Shown here: piece by piece, positions 60-12,703 of the stretch
How positions within the stretch are numbered: position 1 is the stretch's first letter
Layout: each line of letters opens with the position of its first letter
The notes under the pieces: model-generated
Database searches by the model: none
Seen by the model: only the letters and a program-made list of their open reading frames with translations
What the model was told of the DNA's origin: nothing
Origin: a virus
Direction: 5' to 3' (one strand)
IMG/VR virus record: IMGVR_UViG_3300036876_000072
Coordinates: 1-28,669 of that record
Length of the DNA stretch: 28,669 bases
Program-made: the position numbers and the translations under genes

Positions 60-144
60 ATAGCTCCACCTATCTACAGCTTTTTATGGCTTTTTGCAGA
101 GCCGGTCCACGCACAAAAGCCCCGTGCTGTGGCTGCAGCCGTTT

Positions 145-208
145 GATTGCACTGAATACAGGAATTAGATTGCACTGGTTTTCTCAAGCTGTGGAAAAAG
201 AGTGCAAT
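145..208. promoter_or_regulatory. Cluster of three ATTGCACT motifs, two facing each other
   Basis: GATTGCACTG occurs at 145-154 and 168-177 (23 bases apart, about two helical turns), and AGTGCAAT, the inverted form, at 201-208. The second and third form an imperfect palindrome (ATTGCACTnnTTTTC against its complement). Clusters of this kind are protein-binding sites: an operator or, at the end of a transposable phage, transposase sites. No gene lies nearby on either strand. Confidence 0.45.
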
Positions 209-321
209 ATTCCATTTTCCATAGGCTTGAAAGGCGACTAAAACCGCCTCAGAGCTGCCTGCAAAACGCCAGGGCTGGCCAGGTATCCGAAACGCCTCCC
301 GGCTGCCGCCTCCAGTTAGCC

Positions 322-329
322 CAAAAATG
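322..329. repeat. 8-bp direct repeat (left), probable target-site duplication
   Basis: CAAAAATG abuts the outer left end of the composite element; the same eight bases abut the outer right end. Confidence 0.65.
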
Positions 330-510
330 GGGAATTACATACTTGACTCTCTGAATGCAAAGTGAAGTTACTTGCTCCCAGAAATTCATCAGTTTCACCG
401 TTGACGGCACCCATGAGGCGTTTATCCGTCCCCTTTCGGCTGTGAATTCCTTCCTTTCGCATTGTGTCATCCCTCTTTGCGCTGGCCAGAGAGTCAAGCA
501 TGTAATTCCC
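330..510. repeat. 181-bp inverted-repeat-ended element (MITE-like), copy A
   Basis: Same orientation as copy B and 179 of 181 positions identical. The left end reads ATACTTGACTCTCTG where copy B has ATGCTTGACTCCCTG, so the left repeat of copy A has one mismatch to its right repeat. The high identity shows recent duplication. Copy A lies downstream of the methyltransferase and its small partner gene. Confidence 0.9.
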
Positions 511-726
511 AAAATCTTGATGCCTGACATAACTCGCTCCCGACTGACCACTGTTCACTGATAACTGAACCCTGTTTTTCGTCGTGCGCGGCGATGCGGA
601 TTTCATCGCTGGCTTGGCTCGTCCGCTAACTCTGAGGTCTATAGGCTCAAGTCTGGCCGATCTCCCAGAGCGCCGATCCACCGCGCACTCGCCGCACCGT
701 AGCTCGCACTCCGGCGCGGAAACTTG
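511..726. other. Non-coding cargo sequence inside the composite element
   Basis: No gene is supported. A palindromic stretch GTTCACTGATAACTGAAC lies at 553-570, inside a 7-base rhythm of ACTG units (ACTGTTC-ACTGATA-ACTGAAC). Strings of this type are familiar to me as intergenic sequences in acidobacterial genomes, which would suggest the cargo once lay in a host chromosome; this is recall, not a search result. Confidence 0.35.
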
Positions 727-861
727 TTACCTTTTCTTCTTCGCGCGGCGGTGGATGTTTTCGGCCGCCGCCTTGTCGATGACCACCGGCTCCATGCCAT
801 CCGTCGAGATCGTGATGCTATCGATCTCCCCGCTGCGCACGCTCGATGCAAACCGATTCAT
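727..861 (-). CDS. Small protein (44 aa) coupled to the methyltransferase
   Basis: A short gene starts in the methyltransferase stop (ATGA at 858-861) and encodes MNRFASSVRSGEIDSITIST, then DGMEPVVIDKAAAENIHRRA and a basic end KKKR. The codons have G/C-rich third positions like the neighbours, and the product has a plausible beta strand, strand, helix pattern. The overlap is the main evidence. It might modulate or fold with the methyltransferase; no family is recognised. No terminator with a T run is seen after it. Confidence 0.55.
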   Translation of the reverse strand: MNRFASSVRSGEIDSITISTDGMEPVVIDKAAAENIHRRAKKKR

Positions 862-1340
862 CGCGGACAGCACCCCGGCTCCAAGATGAAACATGCGATA
901 TGCCTGCCTGTTCCTTTGCCCTGCGAACCATCTTCAACGGCGAACCATCGCACGTCACCAAGATTACGAACCTTCGTCCCGATGACAGAGAGAATCATCA
1001 GTACCCATTTATCGACGGGGTAGACAAGTACAACCCGCTTCCCTTTGGCTTGCTCTTCGATGGCCTTGCGAACCCATGCGGTCGGGCCTTTCTTCTTGCC
1101 TTGATGGATGATGGATCCAAACGGCGGGTTGACATAGTTGGACTGGCCCCATTCGCATGTGAGGCCGTCGAATCCCTCTGGCAATGGACAGGGACACGGG
1201 TCAAAATCAAAGTGAAATTCCGCGTCAAGTTCGGCATAGAGGGCTGGGGGAGTCAGCCAATAATGTTTGCCGTCCTCCCCGTTGCCCTGATGGAACTTAT
1301 TGTCTTGGGGCATGAGTTGAGATTGATGGATGGTCGCCAA
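858..1340 (-). CDS. Phage-type DNA N-6-adenine methyltransferase (Dam-like), TTG start
   Basis: The 160-residue product matches the small phage Dam family (PF05869 type). It has the SAM-dependent methyltransferase marks in that family's order: W28-L-TPP (30-32), FDFDP (44-48) and the catalytic NPPF (71-74), followed by KGKRVVLVYPVDKW. It should methylate adenine N6 in DNA, protecting phage DNA from restriction or altering regulation. The TTG at 1340 has AAGGAG seven bases upstream; the ATG at 1313 and an ATG at 1412 have no such site, and the region from 1412 to 1340 reads as Arg-rich noise. The stop overlaps the next small gene (ATGA). The gene lies inside the composite element, so it is probably mobile cargo. 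The target sequence cannot be told. Confidence 0.88.
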   Translation of the reverse strand: MATIHQSQLMPQDNKFHQGNGEDGKHYWLTPPALYAELDAEFHFDFDPCPCPLPEGFDGLTCEWGQSNYVNPPFGSIIHQGKKKGPTAWVRKAIEEQAKGKRVVLVYPVDKWVLMILSVIGTKVRNLGDVRWFAVEDGSQGKGTGRHIACFILEPGCCPR

Positions 1341-1410
1341 GTTTCTTCTCCTTCCGCTTCCGATTTTTCTGTGCTTTCGTCTTCGGTTTTGGCCGGTAGG
1401 CCAGCACCAC
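1297..1410 (-). CDS. Possible small Lys-rich ORF (37 aa) ahead of the methyltransferase
   Basis: In this frame the codons have G/C-rich third positions and encode VVLAYRPKPKTKAQ followed by a basic run (NRKRKEKK), more protein-like than the Arg-only reading of the methyltransferase frame over the same bases. The start (GTG at 1410) has no ribosome-binding site; an earlier TTG at about 1428 is possible. It would overlap the methyltransferase gene by 44 bases and hold that gene's ribosome-binding site. It may be the remnant of a longer cargo gene. Confidence 0.3.
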   Translation of the reverse strand: MVLAYRPKPKTKAQKNRKRKEKKLGDHPSISTHAPRQ

Positions 1411-1505
1411 ATCCGTTATCGTGTCCAATACTTGCGAGGGTCGAACATCAGCTTCACCTGCCGCTCTTTAATCTGGCGCTCCATATCGTGAATCTCTCGC
1501 ACTTT

Positions 1506-1686
1506 GGGAATTACATGCTTGACTCCCTGAATGCAAAGTGAAGTTACTTGCTCCCAGAAATTCATCAGTTTCACCGTTGACGGCACCCATGAGGCGTTTA
1601 TCCGTCCCCTTTCGGCTGTGAATTCCTTCCTTTCGCATTGTGTCATCCCTCTTTGCGCTGGCCAGAGAGTCAAGCATGTAATTCCC
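1506..1686. repeat. 181-bp inverted-repeat-ended element (MITE-like), copy B
   Basis: The ends are GGGAATTACATGCTTGACTC and its exact reverse complement, 20 bp, continuing imperfectly inwards (CCTG against TCTG). Copy B differs from copy A at two positions only (both in the left end). It has no ORF of its own that looks like a gene. It lies between the fibre gene and the methyltransferase gene. Confidence 0.9.
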
Positions 1687-1694
1687 CAAAAATG
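1687..1694. repeat. 8-bp direct repeat (right), probable target-site duplication
   Basis: CAAAAATG starts on the base after the right inverted repeat of copy B and matches 322-329 exactly. The A run makes chance identity somewhat easier than for a mixed 8-mer. Confidence 0.65.
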
Positions 1695-1780
1695 AACCGC
1701 CGCATCCGCCCTCAAAATGATGATAGAAAACGCATAACTCTGCCGGTAGCTTAGCTGGCAAGTGAGGCGCACAACCATGG

Positions 1781-2851
1781 CTACGAAGTCAGCCACGCCA
1801 TCAGGGTACCAGCGATGCCTCCATTCATCGGGGTAATCATAAATCCCAGGTAATTGAATCCCGACGCCCCAAGATAGCTCGCCGCGCGCGTTGTGCTCCA
1901 GACAAGAACCTGCTCCACCAGCGGATCGCTCGTAACATACAGATTTAGAGTTGTTCCGTCGTCAGTCAAGATCAGCCACTGTGGAAACGTCAGGTTCCAG
2001 TCAGAAGTAAAAGAATTGCTATTGAATGCGGTAGGCGAAGAATAATTCTGCCCCCAAAACTGCGGTGGCTGGCCAGTAGTGCGGCAAGAGGCACCAAAAA
2101 AGATAGCCTGACCGCTGAGGGTATTGCAAATTACCAGGCCAAGCAAGGAAAACGCCGTAGGAAAACCATTCCCGGGGACTGGCCAAGTAATCAGCGCCCG
2201 CCGGACAAACGGGGCGGAGGGATACGGCCCAACAACTCCCTCGTTCCAATCGCCACTTACCGATGTGGGATCGGCCATGAGAATTCCCGTGGCCGCATCC
2301 GTGGCGCTGAAGCTTCCGCTTTGGTTATAAGCCGTAGTCAGCCCAGTGTTGGCCTGCGTGGGAACTGTTCCGAGTAGGCCACTCCAAAGACCACCGCCGC
2401 CGCCTCCACCGCCGCCTCCCGGAGCGCTGATAATACCACCTGCAATCGTGATCGACGAGCCATCGGGCTTAACCGCACCGAGAGCCGATATGGTTGCAAC
2501 CGGCAGATCCGCAGGCACAAGAACGCGCAAAACAGAAGCACCAGAAGCTCCGTTCGGAGTGGCTAAAACCTGATTTGCTGGGCCAGAAGGCAACGCTACG
2601 CTAGGCGGCACATACCAGGTGCCATCAGCCTTGAGAACTTTTCCAGCAGCGGCGTCGCCGGCGCCGGGAGCCGGAACCAACCCCATAACTCCGCCAGCGC
2701 CCGTGTCTCCGACAAATTTCGAGTGATAGGCGGTAACATTCCGCACCACAGTGGGATCGAGAGATGGAGCGTCCGCCTGCCATAGAACATTTTGCGACCC
2801 GGCTGGCGCTGCCGGCTCCGTGTTATTCAGATTGATGGTCTGCGTTGGCAT
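1781..2851 (-). CDS. Tail fibre / receptor-binding protein with poly-Gly hinge (356 aa)
   Basis: The ATG at 2851 (MPTQTINLNNTEPAAPAG) lies one base after the hub stop; an upstream in-frame ATG gives only a shadow of the hub gene. The N-terminal part has fibre-like wording (GVMGLVPAPGAGDAAAGKVLKADGTWYVP, VLVPADLPVATISALGAVKPDGSSITIAGGIIS), then a run of ten glycines (encoded near 2391-2417) and a C-terminal domain of about 190 residues rich in aromatic and Asn/Ser residues (PPQFWGQNYSSPTAFNSNSFTSDWNLTFPQWLILTDDGTTLNLYV), probably a jelly-roll receptor-binding head. It is the last structural gene. A hinge of pure glycine gives free movement of the head domain. Confidence 0.8.
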   Translation of the reverse strand: MPTQTINLNNTEPAAPAGSQNVLWQADAPSLDPTVVRNVTAYHSKFVGDTGAGGVMGLVPAPGAGDAAAGKVLKADGTWYVPPSVALPSGPANQVLATPNGASGASVLRVLVPADLPVATISALGAVKPDGSSITIAGGIISAPGGGGGGGGGGLWSGLLGTVPTQANTGLTTAYNQSGSFSATDAATGILMADPTSVSGDWNEGVVGPYPSAPFVRRALITWPVPGNGFPTAFSLLGLVICNTLSGQAIFFGASCRTTGQPPQFWGQNYSSPTAFNSNSFTSDWNLTFPQWLILTDDGTTLNLYVTSDPLVEQVLVWSTTRAASYLGASGFNYLGFMITPMNGGIAGTLMAWLTS

Positions 2852-2852
2852 T

Positions 2853-5800
2853 CTAGCTCCCGTTGATCGTCCAGCTACCACCCATGCCGCTGCCGGTCCA
2901 TACGGTAACTGCGGCCGATCCTGACGCGGTTGGATCAGCCACACTGATTGCCGCGATGGTGTGTGATCCAGCCGCGGCTGGCGCGGCGTACAAACCGGCC
3001 GCGCTGATCGTGCCCACGGTCACGTTGCCGCCCGCGATGCCATCAACACCCCAGGTAACATTGCTGTTTGCGTTGTTCAAGACCGTGGCTGAGAACTGCT
3101 GCGTTTCGCCAGCCGCCACCATCGCTGAAGGCGGAGTTACCTGAACCAGCGTGGCAACGGCTGAAGATGGAGTGCTGTAGATGGCGAAGACATCGGCGGT
3201 GCCGTCCCACACGTCGCCTGAGCCATCCTGAAAGGTCATGTGCACGATATTGTCGGCATCGAGATAGCACGCGCCAACGCCCTGGGCGTTGTTAGTTCCA
3301 GATCCAGTCCCCCCGTCGTGAGAGCCGATGTTTACTTCGAGCGACGAGCCGTCCCCTGCGGCCGCGGGAATCTCTAAAGTCGCGCCGTTCGCCATATTCA
3401 GCGCGCAGCCCGCACCAAAGATTGTCCCGTTGCTCAGCGGAATTTCCATCCAGTTACCGCCGCTGAGGGCCTGAGTAGTGACGGTGCCCATGTTATTTTT
3501 CCAGGCAAAGACGAGAACTGAAGCGTTGCCGTGCCAGTCGTTCCCTGAGCAGTCGGTGATGTCGTAATGCACCACCAGACCCGAATCCACGTAGGCGCCC
3601 ATCATATGGGCCACGTTGTGGCCGTTGGTCGGGCCATCGTGCATGTTGGCCACCGCAAAGCACTGCGCGCTGGAGTAACCAGACGGCAGAACGATGGTGG
3701 CGCCGTTCGCAAGAATGCCCTGGCCGAAGAGGATGGTTTCTCCGCCTGGCAGCGTGAGTTCAAGCCAGGTGATTCCGTTGCTGGTGGTTGTCACGTCCGG
3801 GCTGAGCCATCCCAGCGCGGCGTAGTTGAGGTCGCCGCCCCATTCCAGGCCCGAACCGGCACCGTATTCCCAATCACAATAATTCAGCGTCAAGAGTCGA
3901 GTCGCGCTCGCAGCACAGAGCACGATGGCGCTGGCGGAGTGATCGTTGCCGGGCACGCTGGCGCCGGCGGCCGATGCCCAGGCCAAAAGGTTGCCGGGCG
4001 GAAATCCCGAGGCCGGCAGTTGAAAGGCCTGGCCACTGGGAAGTTGCCCGCTGAAGAAGACAAACTGGCCGCCGTTTGCAAGACCGATGCTGGTGTAGTT
4101 GCTGTCATTGCCGGGATCGCTGCCAGGCACAGATGGCCAGCCGGCTTGCGTGGGATCGCTGGTGTCGTACATGACCGCTTCGTTATATGGTCCGAGCGCA
4201 AGCTCTATCTCGCCGCTATTTTCCGAGGGCTTGCGCGCGATCTCTCCGCCCTGGCCCGCGGCTTGCGCGGTGGGAGGAAAGACCGTGAGCGGCTCTAGCA
4301 CTTCGTACTCTCCCGCATATTGGAAGTTGGTTGTGCTGTCGAGAGTAACGTGATCGCCAGGGCGAATGGCGCAAGCCAGGTTGCCGAAGACATCGCGCGC
4401 GAAAAGACTCGTGCGCAGCTTGACGCACGGCGGCGTGATGTAAGGCGCCGTGGGAAGCCCGTCGGCTCCCGTAGTATCAAGACCCAGCAGCCGGTCGCGC
4501 TCATAGCAGGTGATGCGACTGGCCTGATCCCAGGTCATGGTGGCGAAGTCCAGTGTCTGTTTCACCTTCATGCGCTGGCGGGGAATGCCCAGCCCGATTA
4601 CTCCGCGCGCCAGCATATTGGACTTATGCCAGAACTCTGGAGCACGCTCTTTGAAGCGTGAATAGAGCAGTCCACAGCCACCCACCTGGCCCAGGCTCTC
4701 CGGATAATTAGTGCCCTTAGGAACCAGCTCAAATGTGGTGGGATCAACCTCATCCGTGGCTCCCGGATTGATGATTGCCGGAACGCTGTAGACCTGCCAC
4801 TGCCCATCGTAAGTGGTGTTTGTGCCACCCATGGCGATCCAGTCATTTGCTTCGAAGGGATGCGGCGCCGTGGTTGTGACCACGGGCCTCACTCCCGCGC
4901 TCCAGGTGATCGATTGGATGTAGCTGCACAGTGGCACCAGCAGATCGCGTGAATTGGCGATATAGCGGTTGGCGCTCTTGTGCAGCGATTGGTCGCTGGC
5001 ATCCCATGAGCCAGGCAGAATGTGGGCACGGCTGAAAGTGAAGACGCTGGAGCGCGGCATATCGATCTTCACTCCGATTTTGCCGGCGTATTCGGACATA
5101 AAGCCCCGGCAGCAGAGCAGCATCTGTTCGAGCACGGCCTGGAGAGTGGTCTGCGAACTGAATGCATAGTTCCCCGAAAAACGCGGGCGGCCGTTAGCCA
5201 GGAACTCATCACAATATTGCGCCGCCGCGTAGATCGATCCCCAGTCAAAACGGTTCTTAACGGCTGAGTTCAGAACATCGGGACCTGCTGTGAGATCGAG
5301 CTGATAGTCAGGGAAAATCTTCCTGCGCAGCAGTACATCCACAATGTGCCAGACGGGGTTGGTGGTGAAGGCATAGCCCGTCTGATTGCCTTCATCGTCG
5401 AAGAGCCGGCAGCGCAAGGCGCGCCAGAGGCCGATGGGCGCGATGTCGGTCCATTGCGTCGCATCGTTGCCGTTGTTGCTGGTCTGGTTGAGGATGGGCT
5501 GTTTGCGCATCAGCGTGTAATAGGCGATGCGCGAGAATGCGAGCGGCTGGATGGCGGGCGGAAAGAGCGGCCACAGCAGGTCCACGTTCTGATCCGGACC
5601 AACCGACGACGGTGTGAGCGACGCGCCAACTGGTGTGTCGCAACCGCTGTGAAAGTTGAAGACGAAGCCTTCGGGGTTGCCGTCAATAGCTTGCATCCAG
5701 TTGAAGCCGTAGTTCCGGATGACTTTTTGCGCGGGCGCGTTGCCGCCCATCCAGATGAGTAGATCGTTGATCCACAGAGAGGCGGGGCCATCCCACTCAC

Positions 5801-8046: not shown

Positions 8047-11000
8047 CAGTTCATCCCTCCGCCCGAGTTCTCCGCGTAGCTGTCATTCACCGCCGAGCGG
8101 ATATTGTGCTTGTACTTGTCGAGGAACTGCGAGACGCCCTTTGCGTCGATGGCATGGACGTGCAGATGCACATCGCCCATCGAGGTGGACTGCACGGGCA
8201 TTTTTCCGCCGTTCCCCTCGGTCACGGCTTTAGTGATCGCGCTGTTATCGACGCTCGAAAAGATGCGTTCGCCGGCGTGATTCATGTTCAAGCCCGTCTC
8301 TGGAACGTAGGGCGTGCCCGTCGCGTAGGAAGCGCCCGAGGCGGTGTACATGCTGCGCCCGGCCTTTTGCTCCGCATCCAGCTTGCCCATGAACTCTTTG
8401 ATCTCCGGCTTGATGGTGTTCTGGTAGTAGCGGCTGTCGGCCGAGCCCATCTTCTGCGTCGTCTTCGCCGCCTCCATCTGCAGGCTCTGCGCGTCGGAAT
8501 AGGCGTCGAGATAGTTCATGCCGCCTTGCTGGTAGGAGGAAAGATCGCCGGCGATGCGCGGCCGCACAGTCTTGAGATCATAGTCGCGAGCCGCATGGCT
8601 GCTGCCGATGGCTCCCACGACCGCGCCGGCCGCTGCGCCGACCAACGCGCCCACCGGACCTGCGATCTCCATCCCCATCTCGGCGCCGCTCATTGCGCCC
8701 TTCAGTCCGCCGCCTACGCCACCGCCGCTTTCGTGCGCGCCCCACACACCCATGGCGCCTTGCGCCGCTCCGGTTACGTTTGCCTGAGAGAATCCGTCGC
8801 TCGTCATCGAGCCGTTGCCGCTGGAGGTTTTGGTCGGGTCTCCTCCGCTCTTGCCGTTTCCACTTTGCCCTGAGAAATCCTTCCCGAGCTGCTTGGTTAG
8901 GGCAACTCCCTGCGATGCGTCGCCGAGTGCGCCCTTCACCTGGGCGCTTTTCGATGGGCCAGGTCCTACGCCAGGCTCGGCGAGACCCGAAGCGATACTT
9001 CCCGCAACGCCGGCGCCCGCGCCGCCAACGGTCGAACCGCCAGCACTCCAGGCCGAGGAGCCGGCAGACGTGGATGGTGCGCCCGCGCCAAAGCCTCCGG
9101 TTGCGCCTGTAACGCGCGGAGCGAGCAGCGTCGTGCCGCCACCAGGTCCAACGCCACCGCCGCCGCCGCCAGGGCCGCCGCCAGGGCCGCCGCCAGGGCC
9201 GCCGCCAGGCCCACCGCCGCCTGTAATCATCGCGCTACCTATATGGATCGTGGCGGAAGTGATGCTGAAGGCTTTCTCCGCCGCGCCGTGCGCGCCGTGG
9301 CCTGCTGACATTTCCGCCTTCGCGTCCGCGCCTGCGCCTTTGCCTTTTTTGCCGAAGACGCCGAAGCCCATGCCGCCGAGAACGTCGCCGAAGACGCCGC
9401 CCGCGCCACCCTTGGAGTCCGCGCCCGCTCCACCCTTGCCGCCCTGGAAACGCTGAAACAGCGATGCGGCCGCTTCGCCCGCGGCCTTGTCGCCCAGCTT
9501 GGCAAAGTATTTTCCCGGATGCTCCATGCCTTCAAAGAATCCGGTGAACTCGCCGGCCATCTTCTTGCGGGCCTCGCTTGCGGCCTCGATCATCTGGCCG
9601 TTGGCTTCCATCTGCGCCGCCGCCACGCGCCGGTTGTAATCGTCCTGCGAGATCTCCTGGGAGTTTAGCTCATCCAGATATTTTTGCTTACGCTCCGCCA
9701 ACTCAGCGCCGATGGCGGCCGTCTTCTGTTTCTCGGCCGAGAGGAACTTGACCCGCGCCTGCTCTTCGATCTGCGCCGTCTCCTGGGCGTTCTTCTGGGT
9801 CAGCTCCTTAGATTGGCCAGTCTCGCCGGAGGCGATCAGCCCCTGGCCACGCTGCAACTGCGAGAGGCCCGCGCCGTATTGAGCAGCACCGCCCGGCGTG
9901 GAGCGGTCCATGTGGCCATAGGTTTCATCGAACTTCTTTTGTAGCGCATCGAGATGCTGAGCCGCCTCAGCGTGGATCCTCGCAAAGCCCTGCACCTGGT
10001 GCGCGGCGGTCGAATCATTGAGCGCGTTGATCTCCTGGGCGAAGCTGCGCTGCTGCTCTTCAATCTGCTGATTGGTTTGCTGGTTGGCATAAATAAAGCG
10101 TTTCGCGCGTTCTGTCGGATCGAGATTTTCGTCCGCGTTGATGTCCGCTGCGCGGTTCGCGCCCTCAGCCTGAGTTTTCTGAATGCCGGTCATGCCGGCC
10201 ATGGAGGCCATGCGGCCCATCTTCTCGGTTTCAGACTGCTGCGCGCGCAGCCGATTCATCTCCTCGTTGTGAAACTTCGCGTGAACGTCCGCGACCGCCT
10301 GGGCGCTGGTGATGCCTCGGCGCTTCAGATCCTCGATGGCCTCCGCTTCCTGCAGGTGATAGAGCGCGGATCCGCGCAGCCCGGATTCCAGTGCCTGCTC
10401 GTGGAGGCGCGCCAGCTCGGCGACTTGCGACTTGGCGTCGCTGGTGTGGCCTTTCCGGCTGTCGGCAAGCTCAGTGTCGGCCTTGAGCGTTGCAATGGTG
10501 ACGGCGCGGTTCTCTTCGTCCGCGCCGGCATTGGCGGCTACGGGGTTGCGCAGCGCTCTGTCCTGTTCGGTTCCATAGAATCTTTCTTCGTGCGCTTTTT
10601 TCCGCGCCTCTTCTACCTGGAAATCGCGTTTTGCTTTTGGCCGGGCGGATTCCGGCATCTTTGAAATATCAGCCTCGCGTTGCGCCGACCAAAGCTCAAT
10701 GTCGCTCGACCTTTGCTTATGGGCCTGCTCGGCCTCCGCTGAATGCTGGAGCGTATCTAATTTCTTTTGCCATCCGATTGCTGTGTCAGCGGCCGCAAGC
10801 TGTTCATGCTTCGCGCTCCACAGCCAGGTTGCGCCGGCGGTTCTCGACAGCTCGGTATATCTCCTGACCGCCTCCGAGGCCTCGTCGATGCGCAGCCGCG
10901 TGGTCTCAATCGAGTGCGTGTTTCCGAAGTTCTCGTCTTTCGTTTTTGCGACTTCGTCCCGATAGTCCTGCGTAGCCTTGGAGAGGCCCGTCAACTCTTT

Positions 11001-11776: not shown

Positions 11777-12511
11777 TTACGCTTCTTCTTCGACTTTGGG
11801 CGCGGCGGGCGCGAAGAGCACGTCCACGGCCGCAACCTTGTGATACGTGTCCATGAACTCGACAATGCCCTCGCGGTCCGGAGCTGCGCCGTCCACCGTG
11901 TAGCCTTCGACGCTCACGATCAGCTCGTCGTAGAGATCCGCCAAGGTAGCTTGCGCGCCCAGCCATTGCGTCTTGCCGTTGCGGCTGCCGCCCACCACGC
12001 GCGAGCGGCTGCTATCGCGCGAGACGCGGCGCTGCTGCTCTGAGGTGGGCGATATGAAGTTGTGGCGCAGACCCTTGAACTTGCGCATGATGCCATCGTC
12101 GCCGGCGCTCCACACCGCATCCAGGAATACCGACTCCTGGCCAAGCGAGATCGGATCGTCGTCGGAAGGCTCGCTGGCCGAAACCGAGATGATGGCGTTA
12201 GCCACGCCCAGCCGATGCGAAAGAGGCAGCATCGATTTCCAGCCTTCAACCTGGTCGATGCTCGTTTTCCCATCCGGCAACGCGTAGCCGCTGGCGGTCG
12301 TGAGGCTTTGCTCCACCAGGTCGAGCCGCGCGGCGCTGCTGTCGAAGCTGTCCACGCGCTTGCCGTTCTGGTTTTCCGAGGTGGAGAGTATGCCCTCGAA
12401 GTAGCGCAGCCACAGCTTTTTCGGGATGCGCGCGAGGGTAAGGGCGTATTGCTTGCCGCGATCTTCGATGACGATGATCCGCGGAGCTTTCAATTCAATG
12501 GATGTAGACAT
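11777..12511 (-). CDS. Tail assembly chaperone-like protein (244 aa)
   Basis: This protein lies between tail tube and tape-measure genes, the standard place of the tail assembly chaperone (lambda gpG role), which coats the tape measure while the tube is built. Its N-terminus is beta-rich and fits such proteins (IIVIEDRGKQYALTLARIPKKLWLRYFEGI), followed by mixed helices and an acidic end (APKVEEEA). A ribosome-binding site (AAGAAGGA) lies close to the ATG. The next frame overlaps this gene's 3' end by 190 open bases in the -1 frame, as in programmed-frameshift pairs, but no standard slippery heptamer is in phase. Confidence 0.7.
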   Translation of the reverse strand: MSTSIELKAPRIIVIEDRGKQYALTLARIPKKLWLRYFEGILSTSENQNGKRVDSFDSSAARLDLVEQSLTTASGYALPDGKTSIDQVEGWKSMLPLSHRLGVANAIISVSASEPSDDDPISLGQESVFLDAVWSAGDDGIMRKFKGLRHNFISPTSEQQRRVSRDSSRSRVVGGSRNGKTQWLGAQATLADLYDELIVSVEGYTVDGAAPDREGIVEFMDTYHKVAAVDVLFAPAAPKVEEEA

Positions 12512-12703
12512 AGGTTCCTTCTTTCATTTGGGATTTTCGACACCCCAGCGACGAAGACCTGTCGCCGGGGACCCCGTAAAGGGCAGTGCCAGAGGGTTGA
12601 AGGAACCCTTGAAGCTGAAGCCCCGCGCAGGTCATGCGGAGCTTCCGCCGCGGCGAAGGGGTGCCACGGATGATGCAGAAAATGGGGACGTGTGAAAAAA
12701 AGA
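12512..12703. other. Hairpin-rich intergenic spacer between tube and chaperone genes
   Basis: No gene is seen. Besides the terminator, the spacer holds several imperfect stems: CCCCGGCGAC/GTCGCTGGGG (12538-12576 area), GGGTT/AACCC near 12590-12615, and CTTCCGCCGCGGCGAAG at 12644-12660. The style, with strings such as CCCCGGCGACAGGT, recalls dispersed intergenic repeats that I associate with acidobacterial genomes; this is recall only, without a search. AAGAAGGAACC precedes the chaperone ATG. Confidence 0.4.

Follow-up and report, generated by a model that had tools for sequence, protein, structure and literature searches.

A probable non-autonomous IS1595 composite of two MITEs in a Mu-like phage, and related phage cassettes rich in DNA-modification genes

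The 1357-bp unit at positions 330–1686 of the window (the whole 28,669-nucleotide stretch analysed, IMG/VR record IMGVR_UViG_3300036876_000072) can be read with reasonable confidence as a non-autonomous IS1595 composite, in which two MITEs enclose a relic module and the whole was inserted by a transposase acting in trans. Its ends, target duplication and empty site, its family identity and the mobility of its close relatives are directly observed. The family of phage cassettes to which the unit belongs is a larger find than the unit itself.

The unit begins with MITE copy 1 (330–510, plus strand; TIRs 330–349 and 491–510), continues through a core of 995 bp (511–1505, minus strand) that holds a Dam-type methyltransferase gene, and ends with MITE copy 2 (1506–1686, plus strand; TIRs 1506–1525 and 1667–1686). 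The two 181-bp copies lie in direct orientation, are identical at 179/181 positions (2 mismatches) and carry 20-bp terminal inverted repeats (TIRs) of the form GGGAATTACAT[A/G]CTTGACTC. Outside them stand the left (322–329) and right (1687–1694) target-site duplications, both CAAAAATG and without strand; the inner 8-mers differ, AAAATCTT following copy 1 and CGCACTTT preceding copy 2. The preliminary description had drawn this layout of copies, repeats, matching outer ends and unlike inner flanks, and the sequence confirms it. An 8/8 match at the outer ends is expected by chance at about 1.6e-5 for one pair, and no other pair of TIRs with an 8-bp duplication exists in the whole 28.7 kb. All four MITE ends match the consensus of 59 listed related elements (24.7–32.8 bits); the best TIR-like site in the core scores −16.2, not above shuffles, and by this scoring and the inner-flank mismatch the core is a relic passenger module without transposase or TIR remnants. 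Reading the end as GGGG with a 6-bp duplication would also fit the letters, but goes against the family pattern, which is exactly 8 bp beside GGG.

A related phage preserves the unoccupied site. It is L231, a 96%-identical phage recovered through the adjoining 1040-aa tail protein, of which it encodes a 95% identical version; L231 aligns to window positions 126–329 and 1685–3200. It has one CAAAAATG (L231:12239–12246) and both flanks joined with no base missing or extra, so that filled and empty states differ by exactly 1365 bp (the element plus one duplication). The empty site that the preliminary description had proposed to look for thus exists. Exact probes over either flank matched two filled records and one empty record (L231). 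Among these records no site with a single MITE was found, and the state named beforehand as refuting, one copy with its own duplication, did not appear. The sequence is identical in IMGVR 3300037562_000079 and 3300037102_000108, one of them a 36-kb record; its presence in three assemblies argues against assembly error, although extra tandem copies of the core are not excluded.

The carrier is a phage whose window encodes portal, head protease, major head, connector and tail genes. At its opposite end the 36-kb record encodes MuA-like and MuB-like proteins (phrog_310, phrog_296; L245 1899–4684, G002:1–8000), which identify the carrier as a Mu-like, transposable phage. The insertion is intergenic, past the stop codon of the gene at 1781–2944 (minus strand), annotated as lying downstream of a tail fibre J-like protein. 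All three IMG/VR records (the window, L007 and L008) stop at one and the same base, window position 1, which leaves 321 bp between this limit and the element; the base is inferred to be, probably, the right end of the Mu-like genome beside variable host DNA. The element would accordingly sit close to that end, and Mu keeps its modification gene mom near its right end.

Within the core, the gene at 858–1412 (minus strand, the strand of the phage structural genes) is assigned to the DNA N-6-adenine methyltransferases (Dam, PF05869; phrog_111), with an NPPF motif in the translation. Its score of 28.3 bits is only just above the cut-off of 28.1. The enzyme probably methylates phage DNA and so protects it from host restriction, an anti-restriction role that is inferred. 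A 55-aa ORF (727–894, minus strand) that overlaps the methyltransferase gene at its end has no Pfam match and no relative in any fetched locus, and a sigma-70 scan of the unit found no promoter.

The small ORF LDTITDVVLAYRPKPKTKAQKNRKRK at 1297–1428 (minus strand; 43 codons, TTG the only start) is probably 5'-truncated. Homologues with the pattern LDxIxDxVLAYRPKPKTKxAKKRKRK occur in 19/21 listed transposase-bearing elements and also in L178, which places the ORF with the transposon lineage and not with the cargo; none was found beside the four bacterial IS1595 transposases sampled. The coupled 44-residue gene of the preliminary description thus proves to be an accessory ORF of the parent IS1595-type transposon instead of cargo. 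Judging from its basic composition, it is perhaps a DNA-binding helper. The core is best read, on sequence grounds, as a decayed transposon module of accessory ORF and methyltransferase, comparable to L146, where the last 21 residues of the transposase are kept beside an accessory ORF and a methyltransferase and which shows an intermediate stage of transposon decay.

The unit shares its TIRs with a lineage of IS1595-family transposons (PF12762/PF12760) that occurs in viral contigs. A transposon of the parent type, L015, came from 80 loci with a related methyltransferase: its TIRs, GGGATTTATATACTTGACTC, lie 1649 bp apart within an 8-bp duplication, ATTAAAAA, and enclose in one element an IS1595 transposase (zinc ribbon PF12760 and DDE PF12762; NF033547 at 197.5 bits), a 43-aa ORF and a Dam homologue. 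A full insertion sequence with matching ends, which the preliminary description had suggested seeking, is thereby available, and it also carries that small ORF and a related methyltransferase; a transposase with ends identical to those of the unit was not found. In L013, L019 and L032 (508–532 bp) the methyltransferase stands alone between TIRs, each time with a perfect 8-bp duplication. The transposase of the lineage reaches at most about 45% identity to plasmid matches and 38% to phage-record matches, among the matches listed. The only bacterial match to the exact 20-bp TIR (L009, Psychroserpens) is about the chance expectation in 257 Gb and was dropped.

A degenerate TIR pattern search of viral contigs returned at least 119 stretches. 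Elements were kept when neither end had more than five mismatches and the duplication no more than one, giving at least 59 distinct elements of 222–2500 bp with 8-bp duplications. Among the 59 listed, 21 contain transposase sequence (three as remnants) and 38 do not, many of the latter consisting of a single gene with a TIR tight on either side. Directly beside GGG the duplication measures exactly 8 bp (perfect in 57/59, with 24/59 matching at the ninth base), and the targets are AT-rich (83% vs 44% in flanks). Element selection used the duplication, and only one figure is an independent test: a duplication in 56/76 listed loci with paired ends against 45/3422 mismatched pairings. The remaining 20 loci (e.g. 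L097/L136, L106, L130, L188) have paired TIRs and no duplication, and may be recombined or nested. At L199 (9099–9874) two cassettes are apparently fused end to end with a common junction, and a third (NUDIX) lies at 8154–8671.

Transposase-free relatives of the unit have moved. L184 and L194 have in common a 1069-bp transposase-free methyltransferase element, 91% identical and with different duplications, and the loci (11.1 and 8.1 kb) have nothing alike outside it. L189 carries a 711-bp element that interrupts sequence continuous at a related site in L197. G006 holds a Dam cassette together with an IS1595 transposase gene, which makes supply in trans within one phage plausible.

The cargo of these elements is biased. 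For the 56 elements that were recovered by TIR alone, the non-transposase ORFs with a length of 140 aa or more (n = 30) were compared with 142 genes of 140–420 aa that lie in the same loci but not in the elements. DNA-modification genes made up 14/30 of the cargo and 5/142 of the neighbours (odds ratio 24, p = 8e-9, listed elements), comprising Dam, N6/N4, C5 and D12 methyltransferases and one Mom homologue. The count is conservative: an antisense ORF masked the L170 methyltransferase, and L132 matches phrog_757 DNA methyltransferase. The related L184 and L194 were counted as two, and counting them once leaves the conclusion unchanged. Among the further cargo are a NUDIX protein, MazG-like proteins and a PAPS reductase; the PAPS reductase-family cargo (phrog_424) of a transposase-bearing element at L102 (1730–2545) could belong to DNA modification chemistry. 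One contig, L134, has two separate cassettes (1658–2462 and 11961–12588) with an N6/N4 methyltransferase and a Mom homologue (PF25680) and different 8-bp duplications. The preliminary description had also proposed looking for other cargo; it exists between such ends, in single TIR pairs and not between paired copies. All three of the proposed checks thus turned out as expected or better.

A scan of the relatives for composites gave no second convincing pair of copies in the same orientation. The L103 repeat was rejected as one: its 127-bp identity runs past the TIR to the contig start and resembles a k-mer artefact of assembly. Probes from its end and its interior detected the 181-bp MITE in no other phage (L203 has a diverged end, at its contig end), and no second site of the same composite was found; the mobility of exactly this unit accordingly rests on one empty/filled pair.

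In the history proposed for the unit, an IS1595-type phage transposon would first have been stripped of its transposase and also of its ends, leaving a relic module of accessory ORF and Dam methyltransferase. Two 181-bp MITE copies would then have settled on both sides of it, and an IS1595-family transposase, supplied in trans from another phage, a prophage or the host, may have acted on the two outermost TIRs, inserting the whole unit at CAAAAATG and generating the 8-bp duplication. Movement of the whole in one step and the source of the transposase are inferred and not proven.

A two-step origin, with one MITE arriving at CAAAAATG and the core and second MITE added later by homologous recombination with another MITE-flanked module, is still possible, less likely than one step and on balance improbable. 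It would yield the same end structure of near-identical direct copies with matching outer and unlike inner flanks, but the single-MITE intermediate is absent among the records found by exact flank probes. A circle derived from a locus with a single MITE was also considered as donor and rejected, since it would carry matching inner flanks; the observed mismatch excludes this simple form of the route, and a composite donor elsewhere would still be required. Insertion of a complete IS1595-type transposon, rearranged in place with duplication of a 181-bp end, is very unlikely: the core does retain two genes that go together in such a transposon, the accessory ORF and the methyltransferase, but it has no leftover transposase, each copy is a complete MITE, none of the four TIRs is damaged, and no simple event gives complete 181-bp direct copies at both ends. 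That no transposon is involved, only a chance repeat pair round an ordinary phage gene or an assembly error, is scarcely tenable: the methyltransferase family is resident in many phages without such ends, and Pelagibacter phage HTVC100P, Bradyrhizobium phage ppBjS10J-1 and Leptospira phage LE3 have related methyltransferases among ordinary phage genes (annotation only, no TIR scan), but the exact empty site already refutes this reading, and the family-wide TIR and duplication statistics and the three identical assemblies oppose it.

Insertion of the whole unit as a composite has precedents. TIME-COMP1 and TIME-COMP2 (Tn3, Pseudomonas) are composites of transposase-free miniature elements shown to move (PMC4133298). 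Like the unit, TIME-COMP2 has two direct transposase-free miniature elements round unrelated DNA, and its movement in trans was shown by trap plasmid; it differs in belonging to Tn3, with 38-bp IRs and 5–6-bp duplications, on plasmids (PMC4133298), whereas the unit is of IS1595 type, with 20-bp TIRs and an 8-bp duplication, in a phage and with a DNA methyltransferase. Like a composite transposon, the unit has other genes enclosed by a mobile element present twice, with an outer-only duplication and an empty site; the flanking elements lack the transposase that such a transposon has, and its source must be in trans, as in TIME-COMP. Mobile insertion cassettes (MIC231/IS231A; mic-qnrD) are IR-bounded, transposase-free units with a passenger gene, moved by a transposase in trans (PMC3913671). 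Their definition of one IR pair, a passenger and a duplication fits many relatives (L013, L019, L032, L141); the unit differs in having a complete MITE at each end, hence four IRs instead of two, and in its DNA-modification cargo, phage carriers and IS1595 family.

IS1595 elements make 8-bp duplications and encode a zinc-ribbon and DDE_Tnp_IS1595 transposase (PMC8101967). The lineage resembles them in its ends, duplication length and the transposase of autonomous relatives (L015 and others), and differs by an accessory ORF of about 40 aa, missing near the four bacterial transposases sampled. The unit has the 8-bp duplication and TIRs common with transposase-bearing elements. Its 181-bp copies encode no transposase, and no IS1595 transposase was found in the unit or in the 36-kb record of the phage; without a zinc-ribbon/DDE_Tnp_IS1595 transposase of its own, it is an IS1595 derivative and not an IS. 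A further likeness is to Mu mom, in that a transposable phage has a DNA-modification gene close to its right end, with the difference that this methyltransferase came on a transposon. Mom in Mu is a resident gene of different chemistry. No papers were found on IS1595 cassettes with modification genes in phages, in a search where most subscription journals and preprints were not covered.

Paired-MITE transposons are already known from the Tn3 TIME-COMP elements, and what is new here is the IS1595 family and the phage: composites shown for Tn3 on plasmids are extended to IS1595 elements and phages. The set of IS1595 phage transposons is widespread and apparently undescribed and moves mostly DNA-modification genes; that the lineage is specific to phages can be claimed for viral contigs only, without a chromosome search. 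Phage methyltransferases and Mom-like genes are patchy across unrelated phages, and their spread has mostly been ascribed to recombination. A vehicle with defined ends, duplications, empty sites and a cargo bias makes the spread of modification genes testable, and before phage methyltransferases are called resident, GGGAATTATATACTTGACTCCC repeats should be looked for on both sides. The evidence leans modestly towards a phage-adapted IS1595 lineage, with its own accessory ORF, in which DNA-modification genes (Dam, N4/N6, C5 and D12 methyltransferases and Mom) are kept as a mobile pool of transposase-free single-gene cassettes hopping between unrelated phages; the window would show this pool giving rise to paired-MITE composites as well. 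The cargo genes probably help phages past host restriction. If this holds, anti-restriction genes would be traded among phages by transposition, much as resistance genes are among bacteria.
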